Source: Bacteroidales bacterium
GTDB taxonomy: Bacteria; Bacteroidota; Bacteroidia; Bacteroidales; UBA7960
Assembly (NCBI GenBank): GCA_012521995.1
Contig: JAAYLH010000092.1
Span: 1-64,000, forward strand
Reading direction: 5' to 3'
Length of the DNA stretch: 64,000 nucleotides
A program made the translations under genes and the position numbers. The first letter of the stretch is position 1. Each line of letters begins with the position of its first letter. Of this stretch, positions 9,117 through 61,315 are shown one piece after another. The notes below the pieces were generated by a model. That model ran no database searches, was not told the DNA's origin, and worked only from the letters and a program-made list of their open reading frames with translations.

Positions 9117-9626
9117 TTAAAGCTCGTCGTCAGCCATGTCTTCCATATCTTCATTTTCCTGGTCGAAGTCGTCATTTTCGTCCTTCCAGGCAATTTTATT
9201 GATCCGTCGCGAATGACGACCGCCTTCAAAGTCGGTTTTCAGAAAAATGTCGGCAATTTGCAGGGCAGTTTCTTCCGAGATAAAGCGTGCAGGTAAGGCC
9301 AGCACATTGGCATTGTTGTGCAGGCGCGCAAGCCTCCCGATCTCCACTTTCCAGCACAGGGCCGAACGAATCCCCTGATGCTTGTTGGCGGTCATATTTA
9401 CTCCATTCCCGCTGCCACAGATCACAATCCCGAAATCATGCTCCCCCGCTTCTATGGCCGAAGCAAGCGGATGCACCGCATCAGCATAGTCGGAACTCTC
9501 CTCCGAATGCGTTCCGAAATCCTTTATTTTACAGCCCTTCTCAACTAAAAAAGGGATCAGGCGTTGCTTCAGCAAAAATCCGGCATGATCACATCCGAGG
9601 GCTATCCTCAAGCCATTTGTTACCAT
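9117..9626 (-). CDS. rpiB: ribose 5-phosphate isomerase B
   Basis: IALGCDHAGFLLK, DYADAVHPLA, GIVICGSGNGVNMTANK. Confidence 0.92.
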   Translation of the reverse strand: MVTNGLRIALGCDHAGFLLKQRLIPFLVEKGCKIKDFGTHSEESSDYADAVHPLASAIEAGEHDFGIVICGSGNGVNMTANKHQGIRSALCWKVEIGRLARLHNNANVLALPARFISEETALQIADIFLKTDFEGGRHSRRINKIAWKDENDDFDQENEDMEDMADDEL

Positions 9627-9639
9627 TGTTAATAAAGTT

Positions 9640-10270
9640 TTTTGAGGTCTGTAAATAACAAAGCTACAAAGAAATTGTACAAAATTAATTTTTAATTACT
9701 TAAGCGCAGCAAGGCCCAAATATTTGTAAAAGCCTGAATGTACTTTCCCTTCATTCCCAACACCTTGGGTTTATCAACAAGCAATTGTTAATAAATAGGG
9801 GGCCGCATGCTCGTTATTTTTAGTAAAAATATTTGCAATTTTCAAAATCAATTTTGCATAAAAACTTTCAACAGATTTACAAGGAAAAGGCAGGTGGATT
9901 TATAAATATCTCTCCACAATCTTTCAACAAAACAAGCCTGAAAAAAAGCTGTTCATAACCCAAAACTTATCACCATCCCTGGCTCCTAACAAGCTGTTAA
10001 TATCTTTACAATATCCTGATAATCCGTTCTTTTTTTAAGCCACCCCAGTTAATAAACTGTTAATTACCTTTAATAACAATCTTTATCAAGTAAATTTGCA
10101 TAATTTTATCAACTCCATCAACAGCCTAATTAACACATAATTTAATTTTAAAAAAGAATATTTATTATTATTGGTCGGAAAAGTTTTGAGGCTTTAAAAG
10201 GGGAAAAAATTAAATTTATTTGAATGTGATGGTGGGGGGGCAAATGAAGATTGGATTATAAAAAAAAAGT
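9640..10270. other. AT-rich intergenic region with many DnaA-box-like motifs (candidate oriC)
   Basis: Multiple TTATCAACA/TGTTAATAA-like 9-mers, A/T-rich tracts, no credible ORF. Confidence 0.4.
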
Positions 10271-10272
10271 CG

Positions 10273-10280
10273 TAAATTTG
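10273..10280 (+). promoter_or_regulatory. putative TAnnTTTG promoter element
   Basis: TAAATTTG ~110 nt upstream of response regulator. Confidence 0.35.
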
Positions 10281-10389
10281 ATAATTCTTTAAAATCAAGT
10301 TTTTTAAAATCTCAAAACAAGTTTTTACTGGCTTAAAGGTATTGCGTTTTAAGCAGTGACATTGTGTAATTTTTTTAAAAGAAAAGAAT

Positions 10390-11142
10390 ATGGCAAAAAT
10401 TAAAATTTTGGTTGTTGAAGACGAAAGTATTGTAGCCAAGGATATTCAGAACAGTCTGAAAAAACTGGGTTACCAGGTACCGACCACTGTGAACAGTGGA
10501 GAAAAAGCCATAGAGGAAATTGAGGACAATCGCCCTGACCTGGTGCTTATGGATATAATGCTTAAAGGCCAGATGACCGGTATTGATGCTGCCAATGTCA
10601 TTAAGGAGCGATTTGGAGTCCCGGTCATTTTCCTTACTGCTTATGCTGACGACAATACGCTGAGCAAGGCCAAAATCACTGAACCTTACGGGTATATCAT
10701 CAAGCCCTTTAAGGAAAAAGAACTGCAGACCACCATCGAGATGGCCATCTACAAGCACGAAAAAGATGAAGTCGTTAAGAAAGAGCGTGATCTGTATCAT
10801 TCCATCATCGAAAATAAAGAGTCGAAAGACAGCATCTTTGTCCGCGCCGACTATCGTTTGAACAAGATTAATTTCGACGATATTTTCTATGTGGAAGCCC
10901 TGAAAGATTACGTGGTGATCAACACCTCCGACAACAGCTATACCACCCATACCACCATGAAGGAAATGGTGCGCATCCTGCCCTCTAAGGATTTCGTGCG
11001 TATTCACCGTTCCTTTATCGTGAACCTCAGCAAGATTTTCTCCATCAAGTATCCCGACCTGGTGATTGAAGGCAAAATGAAGGTGCTCCCCATTGGTGGC
11101 CTTTACCGCAAAGAACTTTACAGCCGTTTGAACCTGATTTAG
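10390..11142 (+). CDS. LytTR-family DNA-binding response regulator
   Basis: Receiver domain (VVEDESIVAKDI, LVLMDIMLKG, KPF) and LytTR (FYVEALKDYVVINT, FVRIHRSFIVNLSKI). Confidence 0.9.
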   Translation: MAKIKILVVEDESIVAKDIQNSLKKLGYQVPTTVNSGEKAIEEIEDNRPDLVLMDIMLKGQMTGIDAANVIKERFGVPVIFLTAYADDNTLSKAKITEPYGYIIKPFKEKELQTTIEMAIYKHEKDEVVKKERDLYHSIIENKESKDSIFVRADYRLNKINFDDIFYVEALKDYVVINTSDNSYTTHTTMKEMVRILPSKDFVRIHRSFIVNLSKIFSIKYPDLVIEGKMKVLPIGGLYRKELYSRLNLI

Positions 11143-11396: not shown

Positions 11397-13544
11397 CTAT
11401 TCGACCATCTCCAAATCAATCTCCTTCTTCAGGAGGTCGGTTTTTTTGATCTTTACTCTTACGGGACTTCCCAGTTTATAAACCTTATGCTTGTTGTGGC
11501 CAATGACCTGGAAGTTATCTTCATCGAGGTAATAATAATCGTCGGCCAGGTCGCTCAAACGGACCATGCCTTCCACCTTATTTTCGGTGATTTCGACAAA
11601 GATGCCCCATTTACTGACACCTGAGATCAGTCCTTCAAATTCCTGCCCGATCTTATCGTCCATAAATTCAACCTGTTTAAGTTTAATGGAGTCGCGTTCA
11701 GCGTTTTGGGCTTTCTTTTCCATATCGGAGGACTGTACGCAGAGCTCTTCATAAAGCTCTTCCGGAGCACTGGGTTTTCCGTGCGCATAATCGAACAGAA
11801 GGCGATGGGCCATCATGTCGGGATAGCGACGGATGGGGGAGGTGAAGTGACTGTAAAAAGCAAAGGCAAGGCCGTAATGGCCAATGTTTTGGGTTGAATA
11901 TTCGGCTTTGGCCATTGAGCGGATGGCCAGGGTTTCAATAAGGTTTTCCTCCCCTTTTCCCTGGGCGTCTTCCAGTAATTGATTGAAGGAAGAGGAGATG
12001 TTTTTGCGGGTATCAATTCTGAGTTTATACCCCAGCTTGGCCACAAATTCTGAAAGGGTACTTAGTTTTTCAAGGTTTGGTACATCGTGGATACGATAAA
12101 CAAAGGTCTTTGGTTTTGCCTTCCCTTTGGTTTTACCAATGTGTTCGGCCACCGTGCGGTTGGCCAGAAGCATGAATTCTTCGATCAGATGGTTGGCTTC
12201 TTTCTGTACTTTAAAATATACTTCAAGGGGTTTGCCTTTTTCATCGAGCTTAAATTTCACTTCTTCCTTGTCGAAACTAATGGCGCCTTCTTTCATTCGG
12301 CGGCTTCTGAATATTTGAGCCAAATCATTGAGGGTCAATATGGCCTCGCTCAAGGGGCCTTTGCCTTCTTCGATAATTTGCTGTGCCTCTTCATAGCTGA
12401 ACCTCTTGTCGGAATTGATGATGGTTTTGACAAGCCTGTATTTCAAAATTTTTCCCTTTTCATTGATATTGAAGATCACCGAGAAGCAGAGCTTATCGGT
12501 ATTGGGGTTTAATGAACACAGGTTGTTTGAGAGGTTTTCAGGGAGCATTGGGATAGTACGGTCGACCAGGTAAATACTGGTGGCACGGTTGATGGCTTCC
12601 TTGTCGACAATGCTTCCTTGTTTAACATAGTGGGTCACATCAGCAATGTGGACGCCTATCTCATACAGGTTTTCGTCCAGTTTTTTGTAAGAAAGCGCAT
12701 CATCAAGGTCCTTTGCATCAAAGGGGTCGATTGTAAAGGTGAGGGTGTTGCGGAAATCCTCGCGTCGTGCAATTTCTTCCTCGGAGATATAGCCGGGTAT
12801 TTTTTCGGCTGCTTTTTCCACTTCGGGTTCAAAGCGTGCAGGCAAGCCGTACTGGGCCAGGATTGCGTGCATTTCCACCTCGTTGTCGCCCGGTTCGCCT
12901 AATACTTCTATGATTTTCCCGAAAGGGTTTTTAGCCGGATGGGCCCATTCGGTAATCTCGGCTATGACTTTCTGGCCATCTTTAGCACCATTAAGGTTTT
13001 CAAGCGGAATGAAAATATCAACGGGCATGTTTCTGCTGTCGGGCACCAGGAAAGCGTACTTGGGGCTGAGCTGAAGGATACCCACCCAGGTCTTGTTGGG
13101 ACGTTCGATGACTTCAATGATCTCGCCCTCGGTTTTACGGTCTTTTCTTTTGGGAAACAGCCGCACTTTTACAAGGTCATCGTGCAGGGCATAACCCGTG
13201 TTGTTGGAGGCAATATACACATCCTCAAGCAATTCCTTGGTAATGATATACGCCTTTCCTGTTTGTTTCATATCGACGCGGCCCGAAATAAATGGCCCTA
13301 TCTTTTTCTGTTTTTCTGCATAAAGTGGGTTGAGTTTAAACTTGCCCTTATAGGCCTCGAGTAAAATGTTTTCCTTTGCCAGGGCATACAACACCCCTGA
13401 AATGAACTTCCGGTTTTCCTGCCCCAGGGGGCCCAGGGCCTTAGCTACTTGTTTATAGTTGTAGAGGGCTTCGCGATGCTTATTAAAAAGATTCTCGATT
13501 TCTTCCCTCAGTTCAGTTTTAATGTTTTCTTTCTTTTTTGCCAT
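11397..13544 (-). CDS. rnr: ribonuclease R
   Basis: RNB motif FTIDPFDAKDLDDALSYK, IHIADVTHYV-like, C-terminal S1 domain, 715 aa. Confidence 0.92.
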   Translation of the reverse strand: MAKKKENIKTELREEIENLFNKHREALYNYKQVAKALGPLGQENRKFISGVLYALAKENILLEAYKGKFKLNPLYAEKQKKIGPFISGRVDMKQTGKAYIITKELLEDVYIASNNTGYALHDDLVKVRLFPKRKDRKTEGEIIEVIERPNKTWVGILQLSPKYAFLVPDSRNMPVDIFIPLENLNGAKDGQKVIAEITEWAHPAKNPFGKIIEVLGEPGDNEVEMHAILAQYGLPARFEPEVEKAAEKIPGYISEEEIARREDFRNTLTFTIDPFDAKDLDDALSYKKLDENLYEIGVHIADVTHYVKQGSIVDKEAINRATSIYLVDRTIPMLPENLSNNLCSLNPNTDKLCFSVIFNINEKGKILKYRLVKTIINSDKRFSYEEAQQIIEEGKGPLSEAILTLNDLAQIFRSRRMKEGAISFDKEEVKFKLDEKGKPLEVYFKVQKEANHLIEEFMLLANRTVAEHIGKTKGKAKPKTFVYRIHDVPNLEKLSTLSEFVAKLGYKLRIDTRKNISSSFNQLLEDAQGKGEENLIETLAIRSMAKAEYSTQNIGHYGLAFAFYSHFTSPIRRYPDMMAHRLLFDYAHGKPSAPEELYEELCVQSSDMEKKAQNAERDSIKLKQVEFMDDKIGQEFEGLISGVSKWGIFVEITENKVEGMVRLSDLADDYYYLDEDNFQVIGHNKHKVYKLGSPVRVKIKKTDLLKKEIDLEMVE

Positions 13545-17509: not shown

Positions 17510-17941
17510 TTGAAAGCCACAGGCCACATTGATTTCTTTTTTGAGGAGGTAATTATTCCCGGGTTTTCCAGAAAGAAGGCCCGGGAATGGATTATGAATA
17601 CAATAAAGGAAGAGGGGGGATGTCTGGGTGATATCACTTTTGTGTTCTGTAATGACGATTATTTGCTTAGACTCAACCTTGAATACCTGGAGCACGATAC
17701 TTTGACCGACATCATTACTTTTGACTATTGCGAAGATAAGGGGAATATATCGGGCGATATATTCATCAGCATTGAACGGGTTAGGGAAAATGCCTCAGGA
17801 TTGAACCTTTCATTTGCTGAGGAGTTAAACAGAGTCATGATTCATGGTGTTTTGCATTTGCTTGGCTATAAGGACAAGAGACCTGACGATGAAATGCTTA
17901 TGCGCCAAAAAGAGAATTATTACTTAACTTTACAGGCTTAA
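17510..17941 (+). CDS. ybeY: endoribonuclease YbeY (TTG start)
   Basis: LNLEYLEHDTLTDIITFDYCE, GDIFISIERVREN, MIHGVLHLLGYKDK. Confidence 0.88.
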   Translation: MKATGHIDFFFEEVIIPGFSRKKAREWIMNTIKEEGGCLGDITFVFCNDDYLLRLNLEYLEHDTLTDIITFDYCEDKGNISGDIFISIERVRENASGLNLSFAEELNRVMIHGVLHLLGYKDKRPDDEMLMRQKENYYLTLQA

Positions 17942-17955
17942 TTTTTCTGTAATAA

Positions 17956-19833
17956 ATGTTTGAACACTACGATATTATTGTGGTGGGCGGAGGTCATGCA
18001 GGTGCTGAAGCTGCTGCTGCAGGAGCCCGTATGGGATCCAAAGTCCTTCTGATCACCATGAACCTGGCAGCCATTGCCCAGATGTCATGCAATCCGGCTA
18101 TGGGAGGCATTGCCAAGGGGCAAATCGTTCGCGAGATCGATGCCTTGGGCGGATTTTCGGGTATTGTCACCGATCATACGATGGTGCAATTTCGTATGCT
18201 GAACCGAAGCAAGGGCCCTGCCATGTGGAGTCCTCGTGCCCAGAGCGATCGTATTCTTTTCTCGCAGAAGTGGCGTGAGATGCTTGAACAAATCCCCAAC
18301 CTGCATTTTTGGCAGGATATGGTTACGGAAATCATTGTGAATAAAGGAAAAGCCATAGGGGTGCAGACGGGCTTTGGCGGAGCGATATATTCGAAAACCG
18401 TGATCATTACCAGCGGGACTTTCCTGAATGGGAAGATTCATATTGGGCGAAAAAACTTTAGTGGGGGCCGGCTTGGTGATGCCAATGCTACGGGGCTTAC
18501 TGAAAACCTGAAGAGCTTTGGTATTGAGAGCGAGCGTTTGAAAACGGGTACGCCTGTTCGGGTAGATGGCCGCAGCATTGATTTCTCGAAAATGGTAGAA
18601 CAAAAGGGCGATGAAAGCCCCGGACGTTTTTCCTTTCTTGAGACTCCAACATTAAAGAGGCAACTCAGCTGTTACCTTACCTATACCAGCGATGAGGTGC
18701 ACGACATTTTGCGCACTGGATTTGATTTCTCGCCTATGTTTGCAGGCAGAATTCAGGGTACCGGCCCACGCTATTGCCCCTCTATTGAAGATAAAATTGA
18801 CCGTTTCTCGGATAAAGAAAGGCATCAGTTGTTCATTGAGCCCGAAGGCTGGACCAGCAACGAATTTTATGTGAACGGGTTTTCTTCAAGCCTTCCCGAG
18901 GAAGTGCAGTTTAAAGCCCTGAAAAAAATTGAAGGATTTGAGAACGCACGCATTCTCAAACCCGGTTACGCTATCGAATACGACTATTTTCCTCCCACCC
19001 AGTTGCAGTTTTCTCTTGAGTCTAGACTTGTTGAGAACCTGTTTTTTGCCGGACAGGTGAACGGTACCACGGGTTATGAAGAGGCGGCAGGCCAAGGTTT
19101 GATTGCAGGTATAAATGCCTGTAAAAAGATCCAAAGCCAAAATCCCTTTATCCTGAAGCGTTCAGAGGCTTATATTGGTGTGTTAATTGACGATCTGGTG
19201 ACCAAAGGCACCAACGAACCCTACCGAATGTTTACCAGCCGCGCAGAATTTCGTATTCTGCTCAGGCAGGATAATGCAGATCAGCGTTTGACACCTAAGG
19301 GGATAGAATTGGGACTGGCAGAACCGGAACGCCTCGAGCGTCTTACAAAAAAGGAATCGATCATAGCCGATATTTCTTCCTTTATGGAAAAGGAGAACAC
19401 TTCGCCCGATGCCATCAATGGGTATCTTGAATCGGTCTCATCAGCCCCCATAAAAACACCTCAGCGGCTGGGTAATGTGTTGTTAAGGCCTCAGGTGTCT
19501 TTGGTTGGCCTGATGAATGCAGACCCTAAGTTGGGTGGCTATATTTACCAGTTTTCCGGGGAGCCCGTTTTTGAAGAAACCCTTGAGTCAGTAGAGATCC
19601 AGATTAAATACGCAGGCTATCTGGAGAAAGAAAAAGATATCGCTGAAAAGATTACCCGACTGGAGGATATCCGTCTGAGTGACGATATCAATTATATGGA
19701 GTTTAAAGCACTGAGTATGGAAGCCAGGGAAAAACTTCAAAAGATCAAACCTCAGAACATTGGGCAGGCAAGTCGAATCAGTGGCATTACACCAGCCGAT
19801 GTTTCTGTTCTGCTGGTGCACCTGGGTAGATAA
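17956..19833 (+). CDS. mnmG: tRNA uridine-5-carboxymethylaminomethyl(34) synthesis protein MnmG (GidA)
   Basis: IIVVGGGHAGAEAAAAGARMG, SCNPAMGGIAKGQIVREIDALGG, GTGPRYCPSIEDK. Confidence 0.97.
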   Translation: MFEHYDIIVVGGGHAGAEAAAAGARMGSKVLLITMNLAAIAQMSCNPAMGGIAKGQIVREIDALGGFSGIVTDHTMVQFRMLNRSKGPAMWSPRAQSDRILFSQKWREMLEQIPNLHFWQDMVTEIIVNKGKAIGVQTGFGGAIYSKTVIITSGTFLNGKIHIGRKNFSGGRLGDANATGLTENLKSFGIESERLKTGTPVRVDGRSIDFSKMVEQKGDESPGRFSFLETPTLKRQLSCYLTYTSDEVHDILRTGFDFSPMFAGRIQGTGPRYCPSIEDKIDRFSDKERHQLFIEPEGWTSNEFYVNGFSSSLPEEVQFKALKKIEGFENARILKPGYAIEYDYFPPTQLQFSLESRLVENLFFAGQVNGTTGYEEAAGQGLIAGINACKKIQSQNPFILKRSEAYIGVLIDDLVTKGTNEPYRMFTSRAEFRILLRQDNADQRLTPKGIELGLAEPERLERLTKKESIIADISSFMEKENTSPDAINGYLESVSSAPIKTPQRLGNVLLRPQVSLVGLMNADPKLGGYIYQFSGEPVFEETLESVEIQIKYAGYLEKEKDIAEKITRLEDIRLSDDINYMEFKALSMEAREKLQKIKPQNIGQASRISGITPADVSVLLVHLGR

Positions 19834-19834
19834 T

Positions 19835-19850
19835 TGTTTCACGTGGAACA
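19835..19850. promoter_or_regulatory. parS: parS-like site (one mismatch to palindrome)
   Basis: TGTTTCACGTGGAACA. Confidence 0.85.
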
Positions 19851-19880
19851 ATTATTTTGATGGAATTATAAAAGAATAAA

Positions 19881-19896
19881 TGTTTCACGTGAAACA
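19881..19896. promoter_or_regulatory. parS: parS site, perfect 16-bp palindrome
   Basis: TGTTTCACGTGAAACA. Confidence 0.95.
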
Positions 19897-19904
19897 ATTC
19901 AGAA

Positions 19905-20795
19905 ATGGAAACATTACAATATTGTCCTTTATGTGGAGCGGGGGAGGGGTTATTGCCTTTTTTGAAATGTTCCGATCATTTGCTTGGTACGGGACAATAT
20001 TCCATGGTAGAATGTTCTGCCTGCGGCCTGGTGTTTACCAATCCCAGGCCAAATGAAGAAAACCTTCCTTCTTATTACCAGAGCGAGGAGTACCTCTCAC
20101 ACTCCGAAAAGCGAAACAGCATGAGCCAGCAACTGTATTTCCGGGTGCAATCGATGATGCTTAAACGCAAGTATAAGTTAATCAGCCGATTAAGCGTGGA
20201 AGGGAGGAGTTTGATCGACATTGGCTGCGGTGCAGGGGCCTTTGGAAAATATATGCAAAACATTGGATACCAAGTTGTTGGTGTTGAACCCCAGGCCTCT
20301 GCCAGGGAAAAAGCCAGGCAAAAGGGCATTCAAGTATTTGAAAATCAGGAACAAATACTTAAGCCCGGGCATCCTTCTTTTGACTTTATTACCCTTTGGC
20401 ACGTCCTGGAGCACCAGCCCCGTTTTATGGAAAGTCTTGAACAATTCCATCGCATGCTGCATGACAATGGAAGGCTGATCATTGCGGTTCCACAATTTAA
20501 GAGCTTCGATGCCGACCATTACAAAGAATTTTGGGCAGCCTATGACCTGCCGAGGCATCTTACCCACTTTAGCCATGCAACCCTGGAAAAGGCCGCAAGG
20601 CAAAAGGGTTTTAGGCTTGTTAAGAAAGCAGGTATGCCCTTCGATGCCTTTTATGTATCTTTGCTGAGCGAGCAATACAAGGGCCATTCACTTGCCTCCC
20701 TGCGAGGAGTCCTGGTGGGTCTGTGGTCGAATGTAATGGCTGTCCTGAAACTGAAACCCTGGTCAAGCCAAATCTTCGTTTTCCGAAAGGGGTAG
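19905..20795 (+). CDS. class I SAM-dependent methyltransferase with N-terminal zinc ribbon
   Basis: CPLCG...CSACG, LIDIGCGAGAFGKYM, FDFITLWHVLEHQP. Confidence 0.85.
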   Translation: METLQYCPLCGAGEGLLPFLKCSDHLLGTGQYSMVECSACGLVFTNPRPNEENLPSYYQSEEYLSHSEKRNSMSQQLYFRVQSMMLKRKYKLISRLSVEGRSLIDIGCGAGAFGKYMQNIGYQVVGVEPQASAREKARQKGIQVFENQEQILKPGHPSFDFITLWHVLEHQPRFMESLEQFHRMLHDNGRLIIAVPQFKSFDADHYKEFWAAYDLPRHLTHFSHATLEKAARQKGFRLVKKAGMPFDAFYVSLLSEQYKGHSLASLRGVLVGLWSNVMAVLKLKPWSSQIFVFRKG

Positions 20796-24993: not shown

Positions 24994-26070
24994 TCAGGTA
25001 TATACCTTGGCTTCGATCTCCCCGTTTTGAACCATCAGGCCATTCATAGCCAGGGCGCGCATCTCATCCTCACCGGGATACACAAATATAGGGGCAATAT
25101 GCCTTACCCTTTCGGAAACCGCCTCTACAAAGGGCTTCCCATAGGCAATACCCCCGGTCAACAGGATGGCGTCCACTTCTCCTTTGAGCACTGTCGACAT
25201 GGCGCCAATCTCCTTAGCAACCTGGTATGCCATGGCATCATGAATCAATTGAGCATTTTCATCACCGGCGGCAGCCCGCTTCTCCACCTCATAGGCATCG
25301 TTGGTGCCCAGGTAGGCCACGAAGCCACCCCGGCCAGTGATCATCTTCCTGATCTCTTCCTGGCTATACTTTCCGCTGAAACAAAGTTTTACCAACGACC
25401 AAACGGGAAGTGTGCCGCTGCGTTCGGGCGAAAAGGGGCCTTCGCCATCGAGGGCTTGGTTGACGTCAATCACCCGCCCCCGGTAATGCGCTCCTACGCT
25501 GATACCTCCGCCGAGATGGGCAACGATCAGGTTCAGGTCTTCATAGCGTTTCGAAATGGACTTGGCGTGCTGGCGGGCAATGGCCTTTTGGTTCAGGGCG
25601 TGGAATATAGAAATCCTTTCCAAAAGCGGATGCCCTGAAATGCGGGCAATGGGCTCCAGCTCGTCAACCACCACCGGGTCGGCAATAAATGCCCTGGCCG
25701 AGGGAAGCGACTTGGCAATATCGTGGGCTATCAATCCCCCCAGGTTTGAGGCATGCTGCCCCAAAACCCCTGCTTTCAAGTCTTGTATCAGGGCGTCATT
25801 AATTTCGTATACTCCTGAAGGGATAGGCTTTACAAGTCCTCCGCGCCCCACTACCAACGAGATGTTTGAGATCAGGATCCCTGCATGCTCCAGCTCCTTA
25901 AGGATGATGTTCTTGCGGAACTCGTACTGGTCAGTAATGATAGCTGAGGCAGGCAGTTCATCGCAGGAATGACGGATGTTTTTCAGGAAGATCTCCTTGG
26001 TGCCGCGAAACACCGCAATCTTTGTTGAGGTTGAGCCGGGGTTAATGGCCAGGATTAAGTCTTTGTCCAT
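24994..26070 (-). CDS. buk: butyrate kinase
   Basis: ILAINPGSTSTKIAVF, IVAHLGGGISVGAHYRGRVIDVNQALDGEGPFSPERSG. Confidence 0.92.
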   Translation of the reverse strand: MDKDLILAINPGSTSTKIAVFRGTKEIFLKNIRHSCDELPASAIITDQYEFRKNIILKELEHAGILISNISLVVGRGGLVKPIPSGVYEINDALIQDLKAGVLGQHASNLGGLIAHDIAKSLPSARAFIADPVVVDELEPIARISGHPLLERISIFHALNQKAIARQHAKSISKRYEDLNLIVAHLGGGISVGAHYRGRVIDVNQALDGEGPFSPERSGTLPVWSLVKLCFSGKYSQEEIRKMITGRGGFVAYLGTNDAYEVEKRAAAGDENAQLIHDAMAYQVAKEIGAMSTVLKGEVDAILLTGGIAYGKPFVEAVSERVRHIAPIFVYPGEDEMRALAMNGLMVQNGEIEAKVYT

Positions 26071-26091
26071 AAATAGGTTGTTTTATTGGAG

Positions 26092-26988
26092 TTAATTTAC
26101 AGCCGCAGCCAGGGCAATGCTGTTGAGCTTGGTTTCATCAGAGTCAGCCCTTGACGTAAGGACAATGGGTGCGGCAGCTCCCAGGATCACCGCAGCACAT
26201 TGGGCGCCTGCAAAGTAAATAAAGGCCTTGTACAGGGCGTTGGCGGCATCAATGTCGTCGGCCACCAGCAGGTCGGCATCGCCTGCCACGGGGCTGTGTA
26301 TGCCCTTATGCTCTGCGCTTTTCCCGCTCACTGCGTTGTCAAAGGCCAGGGGCCCGTCAATGATGCAGTTCCTGATTTGACCGCGATCAGCCATCTTGGC
26401 CAGGATGCTGGCCTCCAGGCTGCTTTTCATATCGGGGTTAACGGTTTCTACTGCGCTGAGCATGGCCACCTTAGGCTGGCTGATTCCCAGCTTGCGAAGA
26501 TAATTCACCGAATTTTTAACCAGGGAAATTTTTCCCTTCAGGTCTGGGGCTATGTTCATGGCTGCATCAGTGAGGCCGATGATCTTATGGTAGCTCTCAA
26601 GTTCAAAGAGGGCCAGGTGTGAAATGAGCTCACCCGTCCGCAGCCCCCATTCCTTGTTCAGCACCGCCCTCAACAGACTTGATGTGGGCAGGTTGCCTTT
26701 CATCAGGATATCTGCCTGCTTTTCACGAACCATCTTTACGGCAATGGTAGCGGCCTTGTCTACATCGGGCTCATCGATGATTTTAAAATCAGTCAGCGCA
26801 AATTGCTGTTTATAGGCAATAGATTCTATTTTCGACTGGTCACCTACAAGGATGCCTTCCACAATGCCCTTTTGCGCGGCGTTGACCACGGCTTCAAGGG
26901 CATTTTCATCGTGAGCGGCCGCCAGTACAAGGCGTTTTTTTGTGTGGGCGCGGGCCATTTCGTGTAATGCAGCAAGCGATTTTAGCAT
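26092..26988 (-). CDS. ptb: phosphate butyryltransferase-type acyltransferase
   Basis: ADILMKGNLPTSSLLRAVLNKEWGLRTG, GLTDAAMNIAPDL; start trimmed to MLKSLAALHEM. Confidence 0.85.
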   Translation of the reverse strand: MLKSLAALHEMARAHTKKRLVLAAAHDENALEAVVNAAQKGIVEGILVGDQSKIESIAYKQQFALTDFKIIDEPDVDKAATIAVKMVREKQADILMKGNLPTSSLLRAVLNKEWGLRTGELISHLALFELESYHKIIGLTDAAMNIAPDLKGKISLVKNSVNYLRKLGISQPKVAMLSAVETVNPDMKSSLEASILAKMADRGQIRNCIIDGPLAFDNAVSGKSAEHKGIHSPVAGDADLLVADDIDAANALYKAFIYFAGAQCAAVILGAAAPIVLTSRADSDETKLNSIALAAAVN

Positions 26989-27219
26989 AGGGTTTGGGTT
27001 TTTCTTTGGGTTTTGAACGTGCCCCAAAATTAGCAAAAACTTTTCAGGGGATGGGCACTTGCAGCGGCTTCGATGCACAAAAACCAATTGTCGGTGCATT
27101 TCCATTGTATTCGACACTATTTGGTTTAATGATTGGGTCGGGGAAATGTTCTTTACGAACTCGGTCCTGAGCCCGGGCTTCTTACTTGCCTGTTCGTATT
27201 CATCAAGAAACATGTATTT

Positions 27220-27291
27220 ATTTCGACCGAAGTTCAGGCGGGTTTCAGCCGTTTTAAAGCGGCTGAAACCCGCCTGAACTTCGGTCGAAAT
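27220..27291. repeat. dispersed palindromic repeat, copy 1 (perfect 32-bp arms)
   Basis: ATTTCGACCGAAGTTCAGGCGGGTTTCAGCCG-TTTTAAAG-CGGCTGAAACCCGCCTGAACTTCGGTCGAAAT. Confidence 0.95.
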
Positions 27292-27521
27292 ACTTCTGTA
27301 AAATAAAAAATAAACGAAGCATACAAGCCCAAAGATCGTTTCCGTTACATAAGGATGAATAATGCGTACTTCTTTAAAAATGCCATAGCTACTTGGTTTG
27401 CAATGGTTTTTAATATACATGTAAGTTTTTATGCCGAAAGGCCAAAAAGGCCTCCCTGGCCAAAAGGGTCAGCAGTAAGGGGTTTCCTTGAAAGGGGATT
27501 TCCCGGAAGGGAATGTACAAC

Positions 27522-29413: not shown

Positions 29414-30493
29414 ATGACTACCCAGGCCAACGACATACAGATTAAACTGATCTCTGACCCGCTGCAGTATTTCACGGCGATGCTGAACGATATTGAGGCG
29501 GCCACACAATACATCTGGCTTGAGATCTACCGTTTTCGCAACGATCCGGTGGGCATTCGCTTTCGCGACAAGCTATTGAAAAAGTGCCGGGAGGGGGTTA
29601 AGGTAAGGGTGCTGATCGATTCGTGGGCGGCATCTTCTACCCAAGCATTCTTTCAGGAGTTGATAGATGCAGGTGGAGAGGTTAAGTTCTTTAAGAAGGT
29701 GCGCCTGAGCTGGGATGGCTTTACCAAGGGCCACCGCCGCAATCACCGCAAAATACTGGTGATCGACGATTGTATTACCTATATCGGTTCGGCCAACATT
29801 ACGGGCTACTCCTTCAACTGGCGTGAGTCGATGTTTCGTATCAAGGGGCCTATTGCCACTCGCTTCAAAAGGATCATACAGGACAGTTTCCGCATTTACA
29901 ACAAATACTTTTACGATAAACAGGCTTTTACCCGAATCATCAAATATGGCAATTTTGAGATCCTGCGTGATGTGCCTTCCCTGTCAAATCAGCCTGTAAA
30001 GAAGAAGTTCCTTGAACTGATCAATAATGCCAGGCGGGAGGTAATCATCGAGACGCCCTATTTCCTTCCGGGGAGCAGCCTGCGCAAGGCATTGACGGAT
30101 GCTGCCACTCGTGGCATCAATGTCAACGTGATTATTCCCAAGAAATCGGATGTGGGGACCCTTGACTTGCTGACCTCAAAATACCTTGGTGAGTTGGCAC
30201 AGCAAGGGGTGAAGTTCTTTTTTTACCTGCCCCAGAACTTGCACGCCAAACTTTTTTTGGCCGACCGCGAGACCTTCGTGATCGGGTCCTCCAATTTTGA
30301 TTACCGCAGTTTCAGGTATATGCACGAGATATGCCTTTCGGGCAAGCACAAGAGCTTGGTGCGGCAAATGGTCAGCCATTTCAATGAGACGCTGAAAGAT
30401 TCTGAGCCCTTTAATTACGATTTCTGGATGCGACGCCCCATCATGCAGCAGTTTTTCGAATGGCTTCTGGTGCCCTTTCGTCACCTGTTCTGA
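29414..30493 (+). CDS. phospholipase D-like / cardiolipin synthase family protein
   Basis: Two HKD motifs: NHRKILVIDDCITYIGSANI and HAKLFLADRETFVIGSSNFD. Confidence 0.85.
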   Translation: MTTQANDIQIKLISDPLQYFTAMLNDIEAATQYIWLEIYRFRNDPVGIRFRDKLLKKCREGVKVRVLIDSWAASSTQAFFQELIDAGGEVKFFKKVRLSWDGFTKGHRRNHRKILVIDDCITYIGSANITGYSFNWRESMFRIKGPIATRFKRIIQDSFRIYNKYFYDKQAFTRIIKYGNFEILRDVPSLSNQPVKKKFLELINNARREVIIETPYFLPGSSLRKALTDAATRGINVNVIIPKKSDVGTLDLLTSKYLGELAQQGVKFFFYLPQNLHAKLFLADRETFVIGSSNFDYRSFRYMHEICLSGKHKSLVRQMVSHFNETLKDSEPFNYDFWMRRPIMQQFFEWLLVPFRHLF

Positions 30494-53092: not shown

Positions 53093-56000
53093 ATGAAAAA
53101 AAAGTGGTACGGTCTAACAATTTTGCTTTGTGCGGCATTTTTTCTTTTATCAATGCCCAGGGTGGAAGGCAAGGTTGGCTTTAATGGTAGTGACCATTGG
53201 CCAATCGCCCAAGAATTTGCGGACTCACTGGTAATAGGTGACGGAACGGAACAAGTATCAAATACGCCGGTCTATCCCTATTATGGGTATTCGTTCACCC
53301 AAACCTTATACCTTCAGCAAGAGCTGAATTTTTCGGATATGCTGATCAGCCAGATTGGTTATCAGTATTCGGGTGCAGGGGTAAGCTTGGAGATAGAAGT
53401 CTGGATGGGTCATACCGGTATAAGCGCCTTGGAATCAACGATTCCGTTGGATGGTTTTACAAAGGTATATGATGGGCCCTGGGACCTTACGGCAGGAGAC
53501 GGGTTTTCGACCATTGAGATCAACCCGTTTCCATACAACAACAGCGATAACCTTGTGGTTACGGTTATTGAAAAACTTCCGGGCTGGAACAGTCCTTCGG
53601 ATGCTTTTTTGGGCACCCTTGTTACGGATGGGCAACAACTAAGCGTTGGCGAAATGAATGATGGGTCGCCTTACGATCCTGAAAATCTTCCCGCGGGTAG
53701 TCCGATCAGTTACAGGCCAAACACCCAGTTCTGGTTAATGGAAGTACCAGAAGGACCTGCTGTATCGAGTATTACGCCCTTAATGCTGAATTTTGGAGAT
53801 GTTGAGGTTGGGTTGCCCAAGACCATGAATTTGACGATTAAGAATCTGGGGGTTGATCCCTTGGTTGTGACAGGTTTTGAGAGTTCCAATAGTTTATTTA
53901 CGGTTGTCAACACGACATTCCCGCTGCAACTTGGGTTTGTGGAGAGCGCCGTGGTAAGTGTTCAGTTTACCCCAGATTCGGACTCCAACCAAGCGGGCAC
54001 AATTACTTTTCTAATGGATGCGGGCATAGAGGGCGATCGGCAGGTAGAAATGACTGGTCGTGGTGTGAATATGGTTCCGGTAATCATTGGCGAAGGTGAG
54101 GTCACCTCGGGTCTGGTTCCCGTGTCGCCCTATTTTGGTTACTCTTTTTCGCAGACCCTCTATTTGCAGGAAGAAATAAACATTGAGGACAAAATGATTC
54201 AAAGGATAGGCTATCATTACACGGGTGCTTCGCCCAGCCTGAACCTTATCGTGGAGATCTATCTGAGTCATACAGATTCTGTTCATCTTGAAAATGTACA
54301 CTCGCTGGCCAATCACACCAAGGTATATGATGGTCCAATAATCTTCACCAATGAAGGAGATTTTAATTGGGTTGAGACAGATGGGTTTTATTATAACAAC
54401 ACGCAAAACCTGATTGTTACGGTCATTGAAAAGAAGCCGGGCTGGGACAGCCCATCAGATGAGTTTTATGTAACGGAATTGGCTGAAGGGAGCCCTGTGA
54501 TGAGCCGTTATGCGCGAAACGACAGTTCGCCCTATGATCCCAGTGCGTTGCCCAGTGGTAGCAGTGTAAGCTACAGGCCAAACATCAAATTATGGATGGG
54601 TGACGTGCCTACCGATCCAGTGGTTACCCTAACACCTGAGGCCCTTGATTTCGGGCAGGTTGAAAACACGGTAGCAAAGGTGATGACGGTTCGGGCAAAG
54701 AATACCGGAGGCGGCATCCTAAGCATTACGGGCATTGACTTCAGCAATGATCGTTTTTCGGTCATTAATGGTGATTTTCCCGTTGAACTCAGCATTGGCG
54801 AGACATTTGATTTTGAATTTCAGTTCATTCCCCAGGAGGCACAACTGGAAGAGGGGGTTGCTACTTTTCTAATGGATGAGTCGATTCCGGGTAACAAGAC
54901 GGTTCAGTTAACAGGCCGTGGCCTCAGGTTTGGGGTATTACGGGAAGGATTTGAGAACGAATTGTTCCCGCCCCTGGGTTGGAAGGTAGTTGACGCCAAC
55001 GGGGACAATAAAGGATGGTACAGAAACGTAACTACAGCGCCCACGGGACAAACGGTTCCCCGCACAGGGATTGCTGCCGCAGGTGTGGATACTTATGCCG
55101 GAAGCCCAGGGCAGTTAAGTTATGATGACTGGTTGATCACCCCCGAAATGATTTGGCAGGATGGGGATCTTTTTTCATTCTGGATCAAGCGCCTGGCCAA
55201 CCAAACAGGGCAGACCTGGAAGATTGGGTACAGCACGGAGGGTAGTGATCCTGCAGATTTCACCATCATTGATGAAATCACGGATCCATTAATGACCTAC
55301 ACTGAGAAATCCTATGATATGAGTCAATATGGATTGCCCAATGGCGAAGCGTATTATATGGCGATCCAGTTTACGGGACAATGGAGTTGGCCCGGGGTCA
55401 TTGATGATGTATTGGGCTCGGTGCTCAACAGGTTTGAAAAAGACCTGATGATTACGTCGGTTCAGGCTGAAGAAAAGTATATTTATGTGGATGAGCCAAC
55501 CACTATTTCGGTAACCTATGCAAATTATGGGTTGATGCCTGTTGAGGCCGGCGATTATCAGGTTCAGGTTTGCACGTATATAGGCGGAACCGAAGTAGTT
55601 TTTTCGCAAATGGATGGTCAGGCATTGGCAATAGGAGAGGTTGTGACCCTGGACATTGATGTGGTACTGACCCAAATTGGCAAATACGGACTGTATGTAA
55701 AGCTTCAATATCCGGGGGATATGGATTTGCCCAATAACAACAGTGAGGTGTTTGATGTTGAGGTTATTCCTGCATCCATGGTTGTTAAGCAAATTGGGGA
55801 ATTCCCAATTACAGGATCAACCAGCTATACCTCTAACTTCCCCATTGATTTTGAGGAATCGCGAGGATCCAGTCTTTCTCAGATGCTATATTTTGCCCCG
55901 GAACTGAATGTCGGGGGAATGATTGACCGGATTTCTTTTTACAGGAATTTTGCTACCCCGATGGTTCAGCGGAAGGTAATGATCTGGATGAGTTCCTATG

Positions 56001-59000
56001 CGGGCAGCACTCTGGAGACCTATGTTCCTCCTGCAGAACAACAATTGGTCTTTGACGGCCGCATTGACTTCACGGATGGGATGGACTGGACAGATATTAA
56101 ACTGAATAATCCCTTTATTTTTGCCGGGGATGGCCATTTGTTGGTTACCATTTATTATTATGATGGGAACACGACATCGAGCCAAGCCAAGTTTGCCGTG
56201 AATTACCCAGATTATGGCCCCAACAGGACCATCTACGAATACGGATGGGGCTCAATAAACCCTGCTAACCCGACACATGTAAGTGCCACCAACAGTTTTC
56301 CACACACCCTTTTGTTGTTTGAAACAGGCAATGGATTGGGGGCCATAACAGGCAGGGTACTCTTCCAGGAGGACAATAACCCGGTGGACGGTGCGGAAAT
56401 AAAAATTCACAACCCACTGATTCCAGAAGCCTCTGCTTACCTGAAAACAGATGCCAACGGATATTTCGCTGCTAACCAAGCCCTGGCCGGTGAGGGAATT
56501 CAGATCACCATTTCAAAATATGGATACAGTGATGTTGTGCTCAACGATCAGGTATTGTTAGCGGGTGGTACGCTCAATATTGGTGATGTGTTTTTAACGC
56601 CCCGACCACAGATTAACCTGGATGGGTCGGTTCTTTTGAGTGACAGCGAGCTGCCGGCAGTCAACGCATTGGTGAAATTGTCGGGGATGGATCAGTATGA
56701 AACTGTAACGGGAGAAGACGGGAGCTTCCATTTTGAAAATATTTGGGGAACGACCAATTATTTCCTTGAAATAACCCTTGCCGGCTATCAGAAATATGTT
56801 GCACAAATTTCTGTTCCGGCCACCGACTATGAACTTTCACCCATTACCATTCTGGAGCAAGCCCCAGCGCCCAACCTGGTGAATGCAACAGAAGTTGATG
56901 GAAATGCTGTGGTGAGTTGGTTTGCAGCAGGACAGCCCTATCCTTATACGTTCAGATATGATGACGGAAAAGTAGATGGAGTATTAATCACCCCCGGTGA
57001 ACCTAATATTGTTGGAGGTACTTCGTGGAAGCATCATGCAAGTCTGAAAACCGTTCAATGGTACACCTATAATTCGACTAACTTCACGCCCTCAGATGAA
57101 ATCCGGATAACTATTTTGGGATTGCGCCCGGATGGGTCACCAAATCCGAATGATGTACTCTATGTCCAGGATAATATTCCTAACGAATATGGCTGGAATT
57201 CCATTACCCTGACAGGTGCCGTAGAGACACCCAACGGATTCTTCCTGGGGATTTCTGGGTATAATAATTATACCCTTATAGCCTATGATGATGGGGTTGG
57301 TGAGCCCTGGGAGTGGGCTTCACAGACACAATGGAGCAATGGTTTGGGAGCCTATTACCCCCTGGAAAATGCAACATCTCCTCCTTTAAGAGGCAATATT
57401 TTTATTCGAGCAGGTGGTCTGACCTATGGACCAGTTGACCAGGAAGAAAAACAAATTGCCTACCTGGTAAATCAGGAAAGTGGAGAAACAATTCACCTGA
57501 CAGAAGAGGTTGTTCCTTTAATTACCGAGGCTCCGCAGATGGAGATGCCATATATTGAAAAAAGCAGCCCCAAGGAGTTTGAATCTTATAATGTTTATCG
57601 GAGGCCATTAGGTGATATGGGTTGGGATCTTTTAAACACGATCCCTGTTGCTGACACCAGCTTTGTGGATAACACATTCAACAACCTGCCTTATGGGGTC
57701 TATCAATATGGTGTTGAGGCGGTTTACACCAATAACGTAGTTTCAGAAATGGCGCTTTCCAACGATCTGGAAAAAGATATGCGCCTGGATGTGATCATTA
57801 CGGTGAATAACAATGCTGAAATGCCAGTGCTTTCAGAAGGTGCCAGGGTTAGGTTAACCAATCAAAGTGGAAACGTCAATCATATTTACACCGGATTTGC
57901 CGATGAAGGTGGAACGGTGCTTATTCCTGAGGTTCTTAAGGGGGTTTATGATTTATATGTGACCCATGTTGGATTCCATCCTTATGCGGAAAGCGGCATA
58001 AATCTTGAGATAGAGGGGACTGCATGGGATATGGAAGTAGAAATTACGGAAAGAATCGACGATCCATATGATGTGGAAATTTTAACTGAAGGCCAATCTG
58101 TAGGTACAGCTCGTTTGTTGTGGAACCAACCCCCGGTTCTTGATGATGTAGAAAGCTATGAAGCTTTTATTATTTCCGACATAGGTGAGTGGAAAATGGT
58201 AGATCAGGATGGGCAGCCGACTCTGTTTTTAGCCGGGGTTTCCTATCCCAACGCGAGTACCCCCAAGTCCTTTATGATTATGAATCCTACGCTGACAACA
58301 CCACCTCTTGACCCGGCCTACTGGAACGCCTATTCGGGGAACCAGTATTTTGCAGCTTTCGGTTCGGATGGAGGTTTGACCAACAACTGGCTAATAAGCC
58401 CGCCCCAGAACCACAGCGTAGACTATACCGTTTCTTTTTATGCCAAGTCATTCTCTGACACCTATGGTTTAGAGACCTTCAGGATCGGTTATTCTACGGA
58501 TACGGATAACACATCCGACTTTGTTTTCATTACAGGGAATGAAACGGCTTTAACTTATTGGACCAGGTATAGCTACAGCATTCCAAAGGAGGCAAAATAT
58601 TTTGCCATCAGGCACAATCATACAGGTTCTGTGTTCATGGTGGATGATATCAGCATTGGTGTGGTTACAGATGGCGCAATCCCCGGCAATGGATTCAGCA
58701 TTTACCTGGATGACGAACTGGTTGCCGAGGAGGTATTTGATGTGAGTTATGAATTTAACAACCTTACTCCGGGAAGCCATACAGCTGGTGTGAAAGCAGT
58801 GTATCATACCGGAGAATCCCAGTTGATAGCCCTTGACTTTGAACTACCTGAGGGAACCCCTGTTAATTTTGAAGTTAAGGACCACAATGGACAGGTTGTT
58901 GATGGTGCATTAGTAGAGATTATTTCTGGTGGTACCGTGATTTTCACAGGAGAAACCGAGAATGGAAACATCAGCACGGATCTCTATCCCGGAAACTATC

Positions 59001-61315
59001 AGTACATAGTCAGCAAGGACAACTATTCAACTGCGCAAGGATCCTTTGTGGTTTCCGCCACGTCAGTGACAGTGGAAGTAGAGCTTCTGTATAATTACAA
59101 TTTGGTGTTTACGGTTAAAACGCCCGAGAATCAGTTGCTGCATGGTGCCACTGTTGTTGTTAATGGAACGGCATTGGTTACTAATGAGTCTGGATTTGCT
59201 TCGTTTGTAGTTCATCCGGGAACCTTCCCCTATGCTGTTACTTTCCACGAATATGAAACTGTACTGTCAGAGGTTACTGTCAGCGGGGACGCCTCGGAAG
59301 AAGTAATAATGGCAGAATTAACCTGTGAGCCTCCACAAAATCTTGATTACTCACAAGAAATGAATAATGTTACACTTGAGTGGGAAGCACCGGAATTGGG
59401 AGCCAACGGAACCTGGCTACACTGGGATGGTGAACACAACAATAGTATAGGAACAGGAGGTCCTGTTGATTTTGATGTCGCCCAGCGATTTGTTCCATCA
59501 GATCTTGAAGGACACGATGGGAAATTCCTGACCAGGGTATTGTTTGTACCAAGAGAAGCCAACAGTACATACAGCATCAGGGTATGGACGGGTGGCAATA
59601 TTTCAGCTCCGGAGAACCTAGTCGTTGATCAAGTGGTGACCAATCCTGTCATAAATGCCTGGAATGAGGTGTTTCTGACCACTCCGGTATTGATTGACAG
59701 CAGCAAGGAGTTATGGATTGGATTCAGGAGTAACACCCAAACCGGGTATCCGGCAGGAACCGATGCTGGCCCGGCCATAGACGGTAAGGGAAATATGATC
59801 AACCTGGCAAACACTGGCTGGCAAACCTTGCTGCAAGTGGGTTCGACGCTGAATTATAACTGGAGCGTTCGTGGCTTAATTGAAGCCGTTGATGTTCCCT
59901 ATGCTCAGGTTCTTTCATCTTTGGAAGAAGATGACCGTGGCGTGATGTCTGGAGCATTAGAGGTTAATAAAGAAACCCTCAGGCTTGAACCCAATGAACC
60001 ACGTATCCTTCTAGGATATAACGTTTTCAGAAACGGGCAGTTAGTTAATGATGAGGTAGTTCCAGAACCCAGTTATGAAGACAATGAACTTGATCTTGGA
60101 ACCTACGAGTACTATGTAACGTCTGTTTGGAACTCAGGTTGCGAATCCGAAGCTTCCAATGTGGTGAGCATAGAGGTAGATGAGATATCTTGCCCTGCAC
60201 CTTTTAACTTAGAGGTTTGGCGTGATGAAGAAGACTCCAACTTGGTCCGAATGATCTGGAACGAAGAGGAGCCCCAGGAGACTGAATTCAGGTATGACGA
60301 TGGGGTTAGGACAGGTCAGCTTGGCTTCCAGTCAGGAACAATAAATGGCGTCCTTGGGGCTGCTCATCCGGTTGCGGCCTCTTTATCTCAAATGAGTTGG
60401 CTGCTGAGTGATGCTACAGATGGCGGGGGCCCCCACGAGACGATCCAAATTTATGTCTTTGGTTTGACGGAAACCGGCACCCCTGCTAGCGAAGATTTGT
60501 TATATACCGCTGAGGTCTCTAATATTGATGGGGAATGGAATACTTATGAATTCCCTGAAACCATTCAGGCCCCGGGAGGATTCTTTGTTGGAGTTGCCTA
60601 CAGCGGCTTTGCTGGTCTTGGTACCGACGACGGCCTGGGCGACCCCTATGTGTACTCCCCCAATACGCACTTTTATACGAGCGACTATACTTCTGGAAAC
60701 TGGACCCCTTGGGAAGAATCCGGATTCAGCGTAAACGGCCTGATCAGGGCTATGGGTATGGCTGGAGCAAAGATTTCCACCCTTGTGGTTGGTCACGAGA
60801 ATTATAATGCAGAACCCTCATTTGTATATTTCTCCTCTGATGCTTCAGCAATTGAGTCAGCTCCTGCCTGGAATAACCGTGACAGCAATTTCCTTGGTTA
60901 TAATATTTATCACCAGGGGGTTCTGCTCGAAACCCAGTGGCAGGAAACAAGTTACTCCTACCAGGAAGCAGAAGCAGGCCTCCATTGTTATTCGGTAAGC
61001 GCTGTGTATGAAAATTGCGGCGAATCTGAAATGTCAAATGAAGCTTGTGTTGAGATTTCTGTTGGGGTTGATCAGAATCTGGCTTCTGAAAAAGTTAGGG
61101 CATATCCTAACCCTGCTGATGAATTACTTTTTATTGAAGGTAAGGCCATCAGTCGGATCATATTGATAAATTCGGGTGGCCGAATCGTTTTAGATATTTC
61201 CGGTGAAAATGCTGACCGCATGGAAATAAACGTGGGTAGCTATCCGGCTGGCTTGTATTTACTTGTTGTGAATACTGCCTATGGATCGGAAACATTGAAA
61301 ATGATGATTAAATAA
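53093..61315 (+). CDS. giant (2740 aa) multidomain secreted T9SS protein with choice-of-anchor and Fn3/CarboxypepD-like modules
   Basis: Signal peptide; repeated LYLQ(Q/E)E.. and choice-of-anchor D/J-like segments; C-term VRAYPNPADELLFIEG...YPAGLYLLVV. Confidence 0.88.
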   Translation: MKKKWYGLTILLCAAFFLLSMPRVEGKVGFNGSDHWPIAQEFADSLVIGDGTEQVSNTPVYPYYGYSFTQTLYLQQELNFSDMLISQIGYQYSGAGVSLEIEVWMGHTGISALESTIPLDGFTKVYDGPWDLTAGDGFSTIEINPFPYNNSDNLVVTVIEKLPGWNSPSDAFLGTLVTDGQQLSVGEMNDGSPYDPENLPAGSPISYRPNTQFWLMEVPEGPAVSSITPLMLNFGDVEVGLPKTMNLTIKNLGVDPLVVTGFESSNSLFTVVNTTFPLQLGFVESAVVSVQFTPDSDSNQAGTITFLMDAGIEGDRQVEMTGRGVNMVPVIIGEGEVTSGLVPVSPYFGYSFSQTLYLQEEINIEDKMIQRIGYHYTGASPSLNLIVEIYLSHTDSVHLENVHSLANHTKVYDGPIIFTNEGDFNWVETDGFYYNNTQNLIVTVIEKKPGWDSPSDEFYVTELAEGSPVMSRYARNDSSPYDPSALPSGSSVSYRPNIKLWMGDVPTDPVVTLTPEALDFGQVENTVAKVMTVRAKNTGGGILSITGIDFSNDRFSVINGDFPVELSIGETFDFEFQFIPQEAQLEEGVATFLMDESIPGNKTVQLTGRGLRFGVLREGFENELFPPLGWKVVDANGDNKGWYRNVTTAPTGQTVPRTGIAAAGVDTYAGSPGQLSYDDWLITPEMIWQDGDLFSFWIKRLANQTGQTWKIGYSTEGSDPADFTIIDEITDPLMTYTEKSYDMSQYGLPNGEAYYMAIQFTGQWSWPGVIDDVLGSVLNRFEKDLMITSVQAEEKYIYVDEPTTISVTYANYGLMPVEAGDYQVQVCTYIGGTEVVFSQMDGQALAIGEVVTLDIDVVLTQIGKYGLYVKLQYPGDMDLPNNNSEVFDVEVIPASMVVKQIGEFPITGSTSYTSNFPIDFEESRGSSLSQMLYFAPELNVGGMIDRISFYRNFATPMVQRKVMIWMSSYAGSTLETYVPPAEQQLVFDGRIDFTDGMDWTDIKLNNPFIFAGDGHLLVTIYYYDGNTTSSQAKFAVNYPDYGPNRTIYEYGWGSINPANPTHVSATNSFPHTLLLFETGNGLGAITGRVLFQEDNNPVDGAEIKIHNPLIPEASAYLKTDANGYFAANQALAGEGIQITISKYGYSDVVLNDQVLLAGGTLNIGDVFLTPRPQINLDGSVLLSDSELPAVNALVKLSGMDQYETVTGEDGSFHFENIWGTTNYFLEITLAGYQKYVAQISVPATDYELSPITILEQAPAPNLVNATEVDGNAVVSWFAAGQPYPYTFRYDDGKVDGVLITPGEPNIVGGTSWKHHASLKTVQWYTYNSTNFTPSDEIRITILGLRPDGSPNPNDVLYVQDNIPNEYGWNSITLTGAVETPNGFFLGISGYNNYTLIAYDDGVGEPWEWASQTQWSNGLGAYYPLENATSPPLRGNIFIRAGGLTYGPVDQEEKQIAYLVNQESGETIHLTEEVVPLITEAPQMEMPYIEKSSPKEFESYNVYRRPLGDMGWDLLNTIPVADTSFVDNTFNNLPYGVYQYGVEAVYTNNVVSEMALSNDLEKDMRLDVIITVNNNAEMPVLSEGARVRLTNQSGNVNHIYTGFADEGGTVLIPEVLKGVYDLYVTHVGFHPYAESGINLEIEGTAWDMEVEITERIDDPYDVEILTEGQSVGTARLLWNQPPVLDDVESYEAFIISDIGEWKMVDQDGQPTLFLAGVSYPNASTPKSFMIMNPTLTTPPLDPAYWNAYSGNQYFAAFGSDGGLTNNWLISPPQNHSVDYTVSFYAKSFSDTYGLETFRIGYSTDTDNTSDFVFITGNETALTYWTRYSYSIPKEAKYFAIRHNHTGSVFMVDDISIGVVTDGAIPGNGFSIYLDDELVAEEVFDVSYEFNNLTPGSHTAGVKAVYHTGESQLIALDFELPEGTPVNFEVKDHNGQVVDGALVEIISGGTVIFTGETENGNISTDLYPGNYQYIVSKDNYSTAQGSFVVSATSVTVEVELLYNYNLVFTVKTPENQLLHGATVVVNGTALVTNESGFASFVVHPGTFPYAVTFHEYETVLSEVTVSGDASEEVIMAELTCEPPQNLDYSQEMNNVTLEWEAPELGANGTWLHWDGEHNNSIGTGGPVDFDVAQRFVPSDLEGHDGKFLTRVLFVPREANSTYSIRVWTGGNISAPENLVVDQVVTNPVINAWNEVFLTTPVLIDSSKELWIGFRSNTQTGYPAGTDAGPAIDGKGNMINLANTGWQTLLQVGSTLNYNWSVRGLIEAVDVPYAQVLSSLEEDDRGVMSGALEVNKETLRLEPNEPRILLGYNVFRNGQLVNDEVVPEPSYEDNELDLGTYEYYVTSVWNSGCESEASNVVSIEVDEISCPAPFNLEVWRDEEDSNLVRMIWNEEEPQETEFRYDDGVRTGQLGFQSGTINGVLGAAHPVAASLSQMSWLLSDATDGGGPHETIQIYVFGLTETGTPASEDLLYTAEVSNIDGEWNTYEFPETIQAPGGFFVGVAYSGFAGLGTDDGLGDPYVYSPNTHFYTSDYTSGNWTPWEESGFSVNGLIRAMGMAGAKISTLVVGHENYNAEPSFVYFSSDASAIESAPAWNNRDSNFLGYNIYHQGVLLETQWQETSYSYQEAEAGLHCYSVSAVYENCGESEMSNEACVEISVGVDQNLASEKVRAYPNPADELLFIEGKAISRIILINSGGRIVLDISGENADRMEINVGSYPAGLYLLVVNTAYGSETLKMMIK

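Follow-up and report, generated by a model that had tools for sequence, protein, structure and literature searches.

It is well established for the ParABS family that ParB loads at parS and slides along DNA with CTP, and that ParA mediates segregation. In Bacillus subtilis and Caulobacter, parS is a 16-bp palindrome present as a small cluster in the origin region and served by a single ParB with parS-type residues. Firmicutes and others carry an origin cluster, mnmG-(rsmG)-parA-parB, in which parS lies against parAB. For the Bacteroidetes, the available text of a study of Prevotella intermedia places oriC commonly far from dnaA (PMC4755523), and in gut strains parS clusters, instead of dnaA, serve as the marker of the origin (PMC10197239); a location of oriC away from dnaA in this group is already published.

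The locus described here shares with B. subtilis and Caulobacter the identical 16-bp palindrome, the small cluster, a probable position in the origin region, and a single ParB with parS-type residues. Unlike in those systems, parAB lies away from the origin, on another contig, and in complete Bacteroidia it is 0.8 to 1.7 Mb from the skew minimum. As in the Firmicutes cluster, mnmG and parS are close together and near the origin, whereas the Bacteroidota cluster lacks parAB and its parS lies 4 to 600 bp from mnmG. Judged by its sequence, the pair is an ordinary chromosomal ParABS centromere, as the earlier note recognized, here belonging to an uncultivated member of the Bacteroidales and lying in an informative setting. 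The window, meaning the whole 64,000-nucleotide stretch that was analyzed, contains the following features around it.

17510 to 17941, plus strand: ybeY, immediately before mnmG; name based on sequence and synteny
17956 to 19833, plus strand: mnmG (gidA), 625 aa; Pfam GIDA, 7e-161; the constant neighbor of parS in Bacteroidota
19835 to 19850, unstranded: parS1, TGTTTCACGTGGAACA, one mismatch to the consensus; position kept in G003, G002, and other relatives
19881 to 19896, unstranded: parS2, TGTTTCACGTGAAACA, a perfect 16-bp palindrome with no mismatches
19905 to 20795, plus strand: SAM-dependent methyltransferase with a Cys-rich N terminus; Pfam Methyltransf_23, 6e-27; kept downstream in family relatives

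Direct reading of the sequence reproduces exactly the two 16-mers, the coordinates, and the 46-bp start-to-start spacing given in the earlier note. Both sites lie within the gap between the end of mnmG (19833) and the methyltransferase ATG (19905), so that parS2 does sit just before the methyltransferase start, at a distance of 8 bases rather than the 9 bp first reported. Both fit the sequence definition of parS, which is the 16-bp palindrome TGTTTCACGTGAAACA or a close variant. In the window, they are the sole matches at up to three mismatches (0.35 expected in shuffles), and base counting gives an expectation of about 1.5e-5 for a perfect 16-mer. The genome is a 3.26-Mb draft in 140 contigs, 97.8% complete. 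The genome-wide scan proposed earlier, run over the whole assembly at up to one mismatch, returned parS1 and parS2 only, both at the mnmG locus, and a reversed-pattern control returned 0 matches. A two-mismatch site on contig C63 was dismissed as a further parS because its CACGTG core is broken.

Elsewhere in the window, positions 53093 to 61315 encode a 2,740-aa secreted protein with CarboxypepD_reg repeats, a Cleaved_Adhesin domain, and a Por_Secre_tail (type IX secretion signal). Adjacent minus-strand genes at 24994 to 27420 encode a putative butyrate kinase (buk) and phosphate butyryltransferase (ptb), named from their sequence.

Neither parA nor parB is present in the 64-kb window, as had been noted. 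A profile search of the whole genome finds a single ParB_N match, on contig C12, and the parA-parB pair that the earlier note proposed to look for is found there (locus L035).

L035, 6067 to 6915, minus strand: parA, 282 aa, AAA_31; directly before parB, in one operon
L035, 5165 to 6070, minus strand: parB, 301 aa; ParB_N, HTH_ParB, and ParB_C (Pfam)

The surrounding gene block reads parA-parB-DUF5683-like-dapB-lepB, the last three named from sequence reading alone. The ParB protein has its expected domains and the CTP motifs GERR and ENIQRE, and a ParA ATPase is encoded with it. Aligned to solved ParB and Noc structures, it places an Arg (in GKSRSS) and a Gly (in SMGHARAL) at the equivalents of R173 and G201, two residues that are conserved in all ParB proteins and altered in Noc (Jalal et al., PMC7383237). 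The alignment thus identifies the specificity residues of this genome's ParB as parS-type, those of a ParB and not of a Noc. Proximity of parAB to parS and the origin, which is usual for parS without defining it, is not seen here. Loading of an SMC-ScpAB partner at parS is common for such sites but does not define them. No SMC_hinge match was found in the draft genome, and a Bacteroides ihuae control was likewise negative; because of this, SMC loading at parS is unsupported and we do not claim an SMC step.

The linkage of parS to mnmG extends well beyond this genome. Sites with up to one mismatch occur in 33 of 58 relatives (34 of 59 counting the source genome), and 28 of the 30 relatives' loci retrieved have parS within 576 bp of mnmG, either downstream, upstream in the ybeY-mnmG gap, or on both sides. 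We re-searched twenty relatives without a site at this threshold, allowing two mismatches; eight loci retrieved in this way have the symmetric variant TGTTCCACGTGGAACA, seven of them within 94 bp of mnmG. Phylum-wide, 159 of 198 genomes have a parS site; among the matches listed, 35 of 40 parS-positive genomes place it no more than 2 kb from mnmG, the five exceptions being two at about 27 kb and three on another contig. At the Firmicutes loci, the distance between mnmG and the 16-mer is mostly 0.8 to 3.6 kb, and parA and parB belong to that cluster too. Since Firmicutes have mnmG, parS, and parAB together, the simplest reading is that all three once shared the origin locus and that in Bacteroidota parAB moved off, apparently leaving only parS beside mnmG, an order of events that we infer. 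The tightness and breadth of the mnmG-parS link may be new. PMC10197239, on the OMM12 gut strains, mentions mnmG 0 times, and the available text of PMC4755523 does not mention it.

Could the pair instead serve the gene that follows it? The earlier note suggested that ParB binding could also affect expression of the methyltransferase. parS2 does lie within the leader of this gene, with an 8-bp gap shared by G003 and G002, which are relatives from the genus; the methyltransferase follows mnmG in most family relatives, and the available text of PMC5521831 reports that Pseudomonas ParB represses promoters beside parS3 and parS4. However, other genera have gaps of 11 to 50 bp or more, the loci L012, L015, L017, and L038 to L040 carry parS upstream of mnmG and away from the methyltransferase, and the constant partner of parS is mnmG rather than the methyltransferase. 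We therefore consider it improbable that ParB or another factor acts at parS2 mainly as an operator for this gene, with the centromere role secondary. ParB control of the methyltransferase is possible, is unsupported beyond the genus, and would not be the conserved feature. Still less probable is that ParB acts elsewhere or that the parS copies are out of use, as the location of parAB on another contig, probably far off, might suggest: the assembly holds no other site with up to one mismatch, and the strict palindromy of both 16-mers over large distances, including the symmetric TGTTCCACGTGGAACA in sister genera, is as selection predicts. Least probable of all is a chance likeness in which a palindrome with an E-box-like CACGTG core serves a different regulator, for although the only tie to ParB is a sequence match, 16 of 16 bases agree with the ParB consensus, each genome has one strong ParB with matching specificity residues, and Firmicutes carry the same 16-mer inside the mnmG-parAB cluster.

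We next consider where the origin lies. As the draft is in 140 contigs, its own skew and distances are not measurable, and GC skew was sampled, as 20 stretches of 20 kb each, in five Bacteroidia chromosomes that are single contigs, with origin and terminus fitted. This is the skew comparison proposed earlier, run on complete relatives. The fitted minimum falls at or beside mnmG-parS in four of the five (G175, G227, G086, and G114), with fit midpoints 39 to 77 kb from parS-mnmG, which is the sampling limit; in the fifth, G152, it is 0.3 to 0.5 Mb off parS. In G049, from the same order, the skew sign switches near parS. The fitted origin is 0.7 to 1.3 Mb from dnaA in the complete Bacteroidia and 0.8 to 1.7 Mb from parB in all five (0.8 to 1.1 Mb in the four above), and the uncoupling of the sites from parAB that was suggested earlier is real. 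In two genomes of another class, dnaA and mnmG-parS lie close to each other: G120 has about 7 kb between them, and in the circular record of G230 both are found near its ends. In each of these two genomes, parB is at a distance of hundreds of kb. For the source genome itself, a near-origin position of parS is indicated indirectly, through the candidate oriC described below. The earlier note held that a genome without a ParB homologue, or 16-mers scattered with no clustering near the skew minimum, would count against a parS reading. We found neither, since a ParB exists, the sites are unique to one locus, and the skew minimum of the relatives lies at mnmG-parS in four of five.

Taken with the ParA and ParB genes, the parS-type residues, and the unique locus, these results support the earlier assignment of the 16-mers as ParB binding sites, and the pair is very probably the chromosomal centromere of a standard ParABS system whose parS is tied to mnmG at the origin and whose parAB, and in Bacteroidia also dnaA, has moved far away. 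In such a system, the distant parAB operon would supply a ParB that recognizes both 16-mers, loads as a CTP-dependent clamp, and spreads over the mnmG region, and ParA would then separate the newly copied origin regions.

A candidate origin lies 9.7 kb before parS, in the gap upstream of rpiB.

9117 to 9626, minus strand: rpiB (ribose-5-phosphate isomerase B); Pfam LacAB_rpiB, 3e-55; left border of the candidate oriC
9627 to 10150, unstranded: candidate oriC, AT-rich intergenic; DnaA-like boxes at 9627 (minus), 9650 (minus), 9771 (plus), 9786 (minus), and 9950 (minus)
10390 to 11142, plus strand: LytTR response regulator; Pfam Response_reg and LytTR; right border of the candidate oriC
11397 to 13544, minus strand: RNase R (rnr); Pfam RNB, 2e-110; member of the conserved block

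The rpiB-LytTR gap (9627 to 10389) is 71% AT and lies where the cumulative GC skew of the window reaches its minimum. In it, TTATNNACA occurs five times, where shuffles of this stretch predict 0.26, and TTATYAACA three times, where they predict 0.07. The whole genome contains 92 copies of TTATYAACA, and the only group of three (in 168 bp) is the one in the candidate oriC. The TTATYAACA form was picked after inspecting the sequence; the better support for the boxes comes from G003 and from conservation. The same gap in G003 holds 5 of 117 TTATYAACA words, in 497 bp, with other groups of at most two among the matches listed; across four relatives, 71 to 89% of box columns are invariant, against about 36% elsewhere in the gap. 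Further, the gene order lutB-rpiB-gap-LytTR-rnr-DUF4175-ybeY-mnmG-parS is common to most of the family.

The candidate oriC thus shows what is expected of an origin, an AT-rich intergenic stretch with clustered DnaA boxes, here in the variant form TTATYAACA. The exact canonical box TTATCCACA is absent from it, and a scan of the window for TTATCCACA gave one scattered exact match and no cluster. The 336 bases upstream of dnaA contain no DnaA-box cluster. In other order- and class-level relatives, box clusters near mnmG are mostly weak or absent, and only G152 has one, again upstream of rpiB. The DNA-reading motif of DnaA is GNKDHATVLHA here versus GGRDHTTVIHA in B. subtilis, a difference that is compatible with an altered box and only suggestive. 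We conclude that the AT-rich gap at 9627 to 10150 is probably the origin of the source genome. This candidate oriC may be new. The locus resembles the origins described for the OMM12 gut strains (PMC10197239) and for P. intermedia (PMC4755523), which, in the available text, coincide with the skew switch, carry DnaA boxes or a parS cluster, and are not near dnaA; relative to these descriptions, the linked gene and the TTATYAACA candidate oriC upstream of rpiB are added here.

The LytTR response regulator is 97% identical in G003 and G002, where neighboring genes are 56 to 89% identical, and is unusually constrained. A second TTATCAACA/TTATTAACA inverted pair occurs at 30381 to 30404 of contig C83 of the source genome, with a 15-bp offset identical to that of the 9771/9786 pair.

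For the family as a whole, the evidence leans modestly toward an origin in the gap upstream of rpiB, at which DnaA would fire from non-canonical TTATYAACA boxes, with mnmG-parS as the origin landmark that stays fixed across Bacteroidota as dnaA and parAB drift. In genomes and metagenome-assembled genomes of Bacteroidota, dnaA is often taken as the origin, a choice that misleads in Bacteroidia. If this reading is true, origins in Bacteroidota should be placed by mnmG-parS rather than by dnaA, because mnmG-parS is fixed and dnaA and parAB drift, and the tight phylum-wide link would offer a simple origin landmark in fragmented assemblies. The arrangement would also be a natural case in which the centromere stays at the origin and the genes for its binding protein lie about 1 Mb away, which would allow a test of whether ParB must be synthesized near parS.
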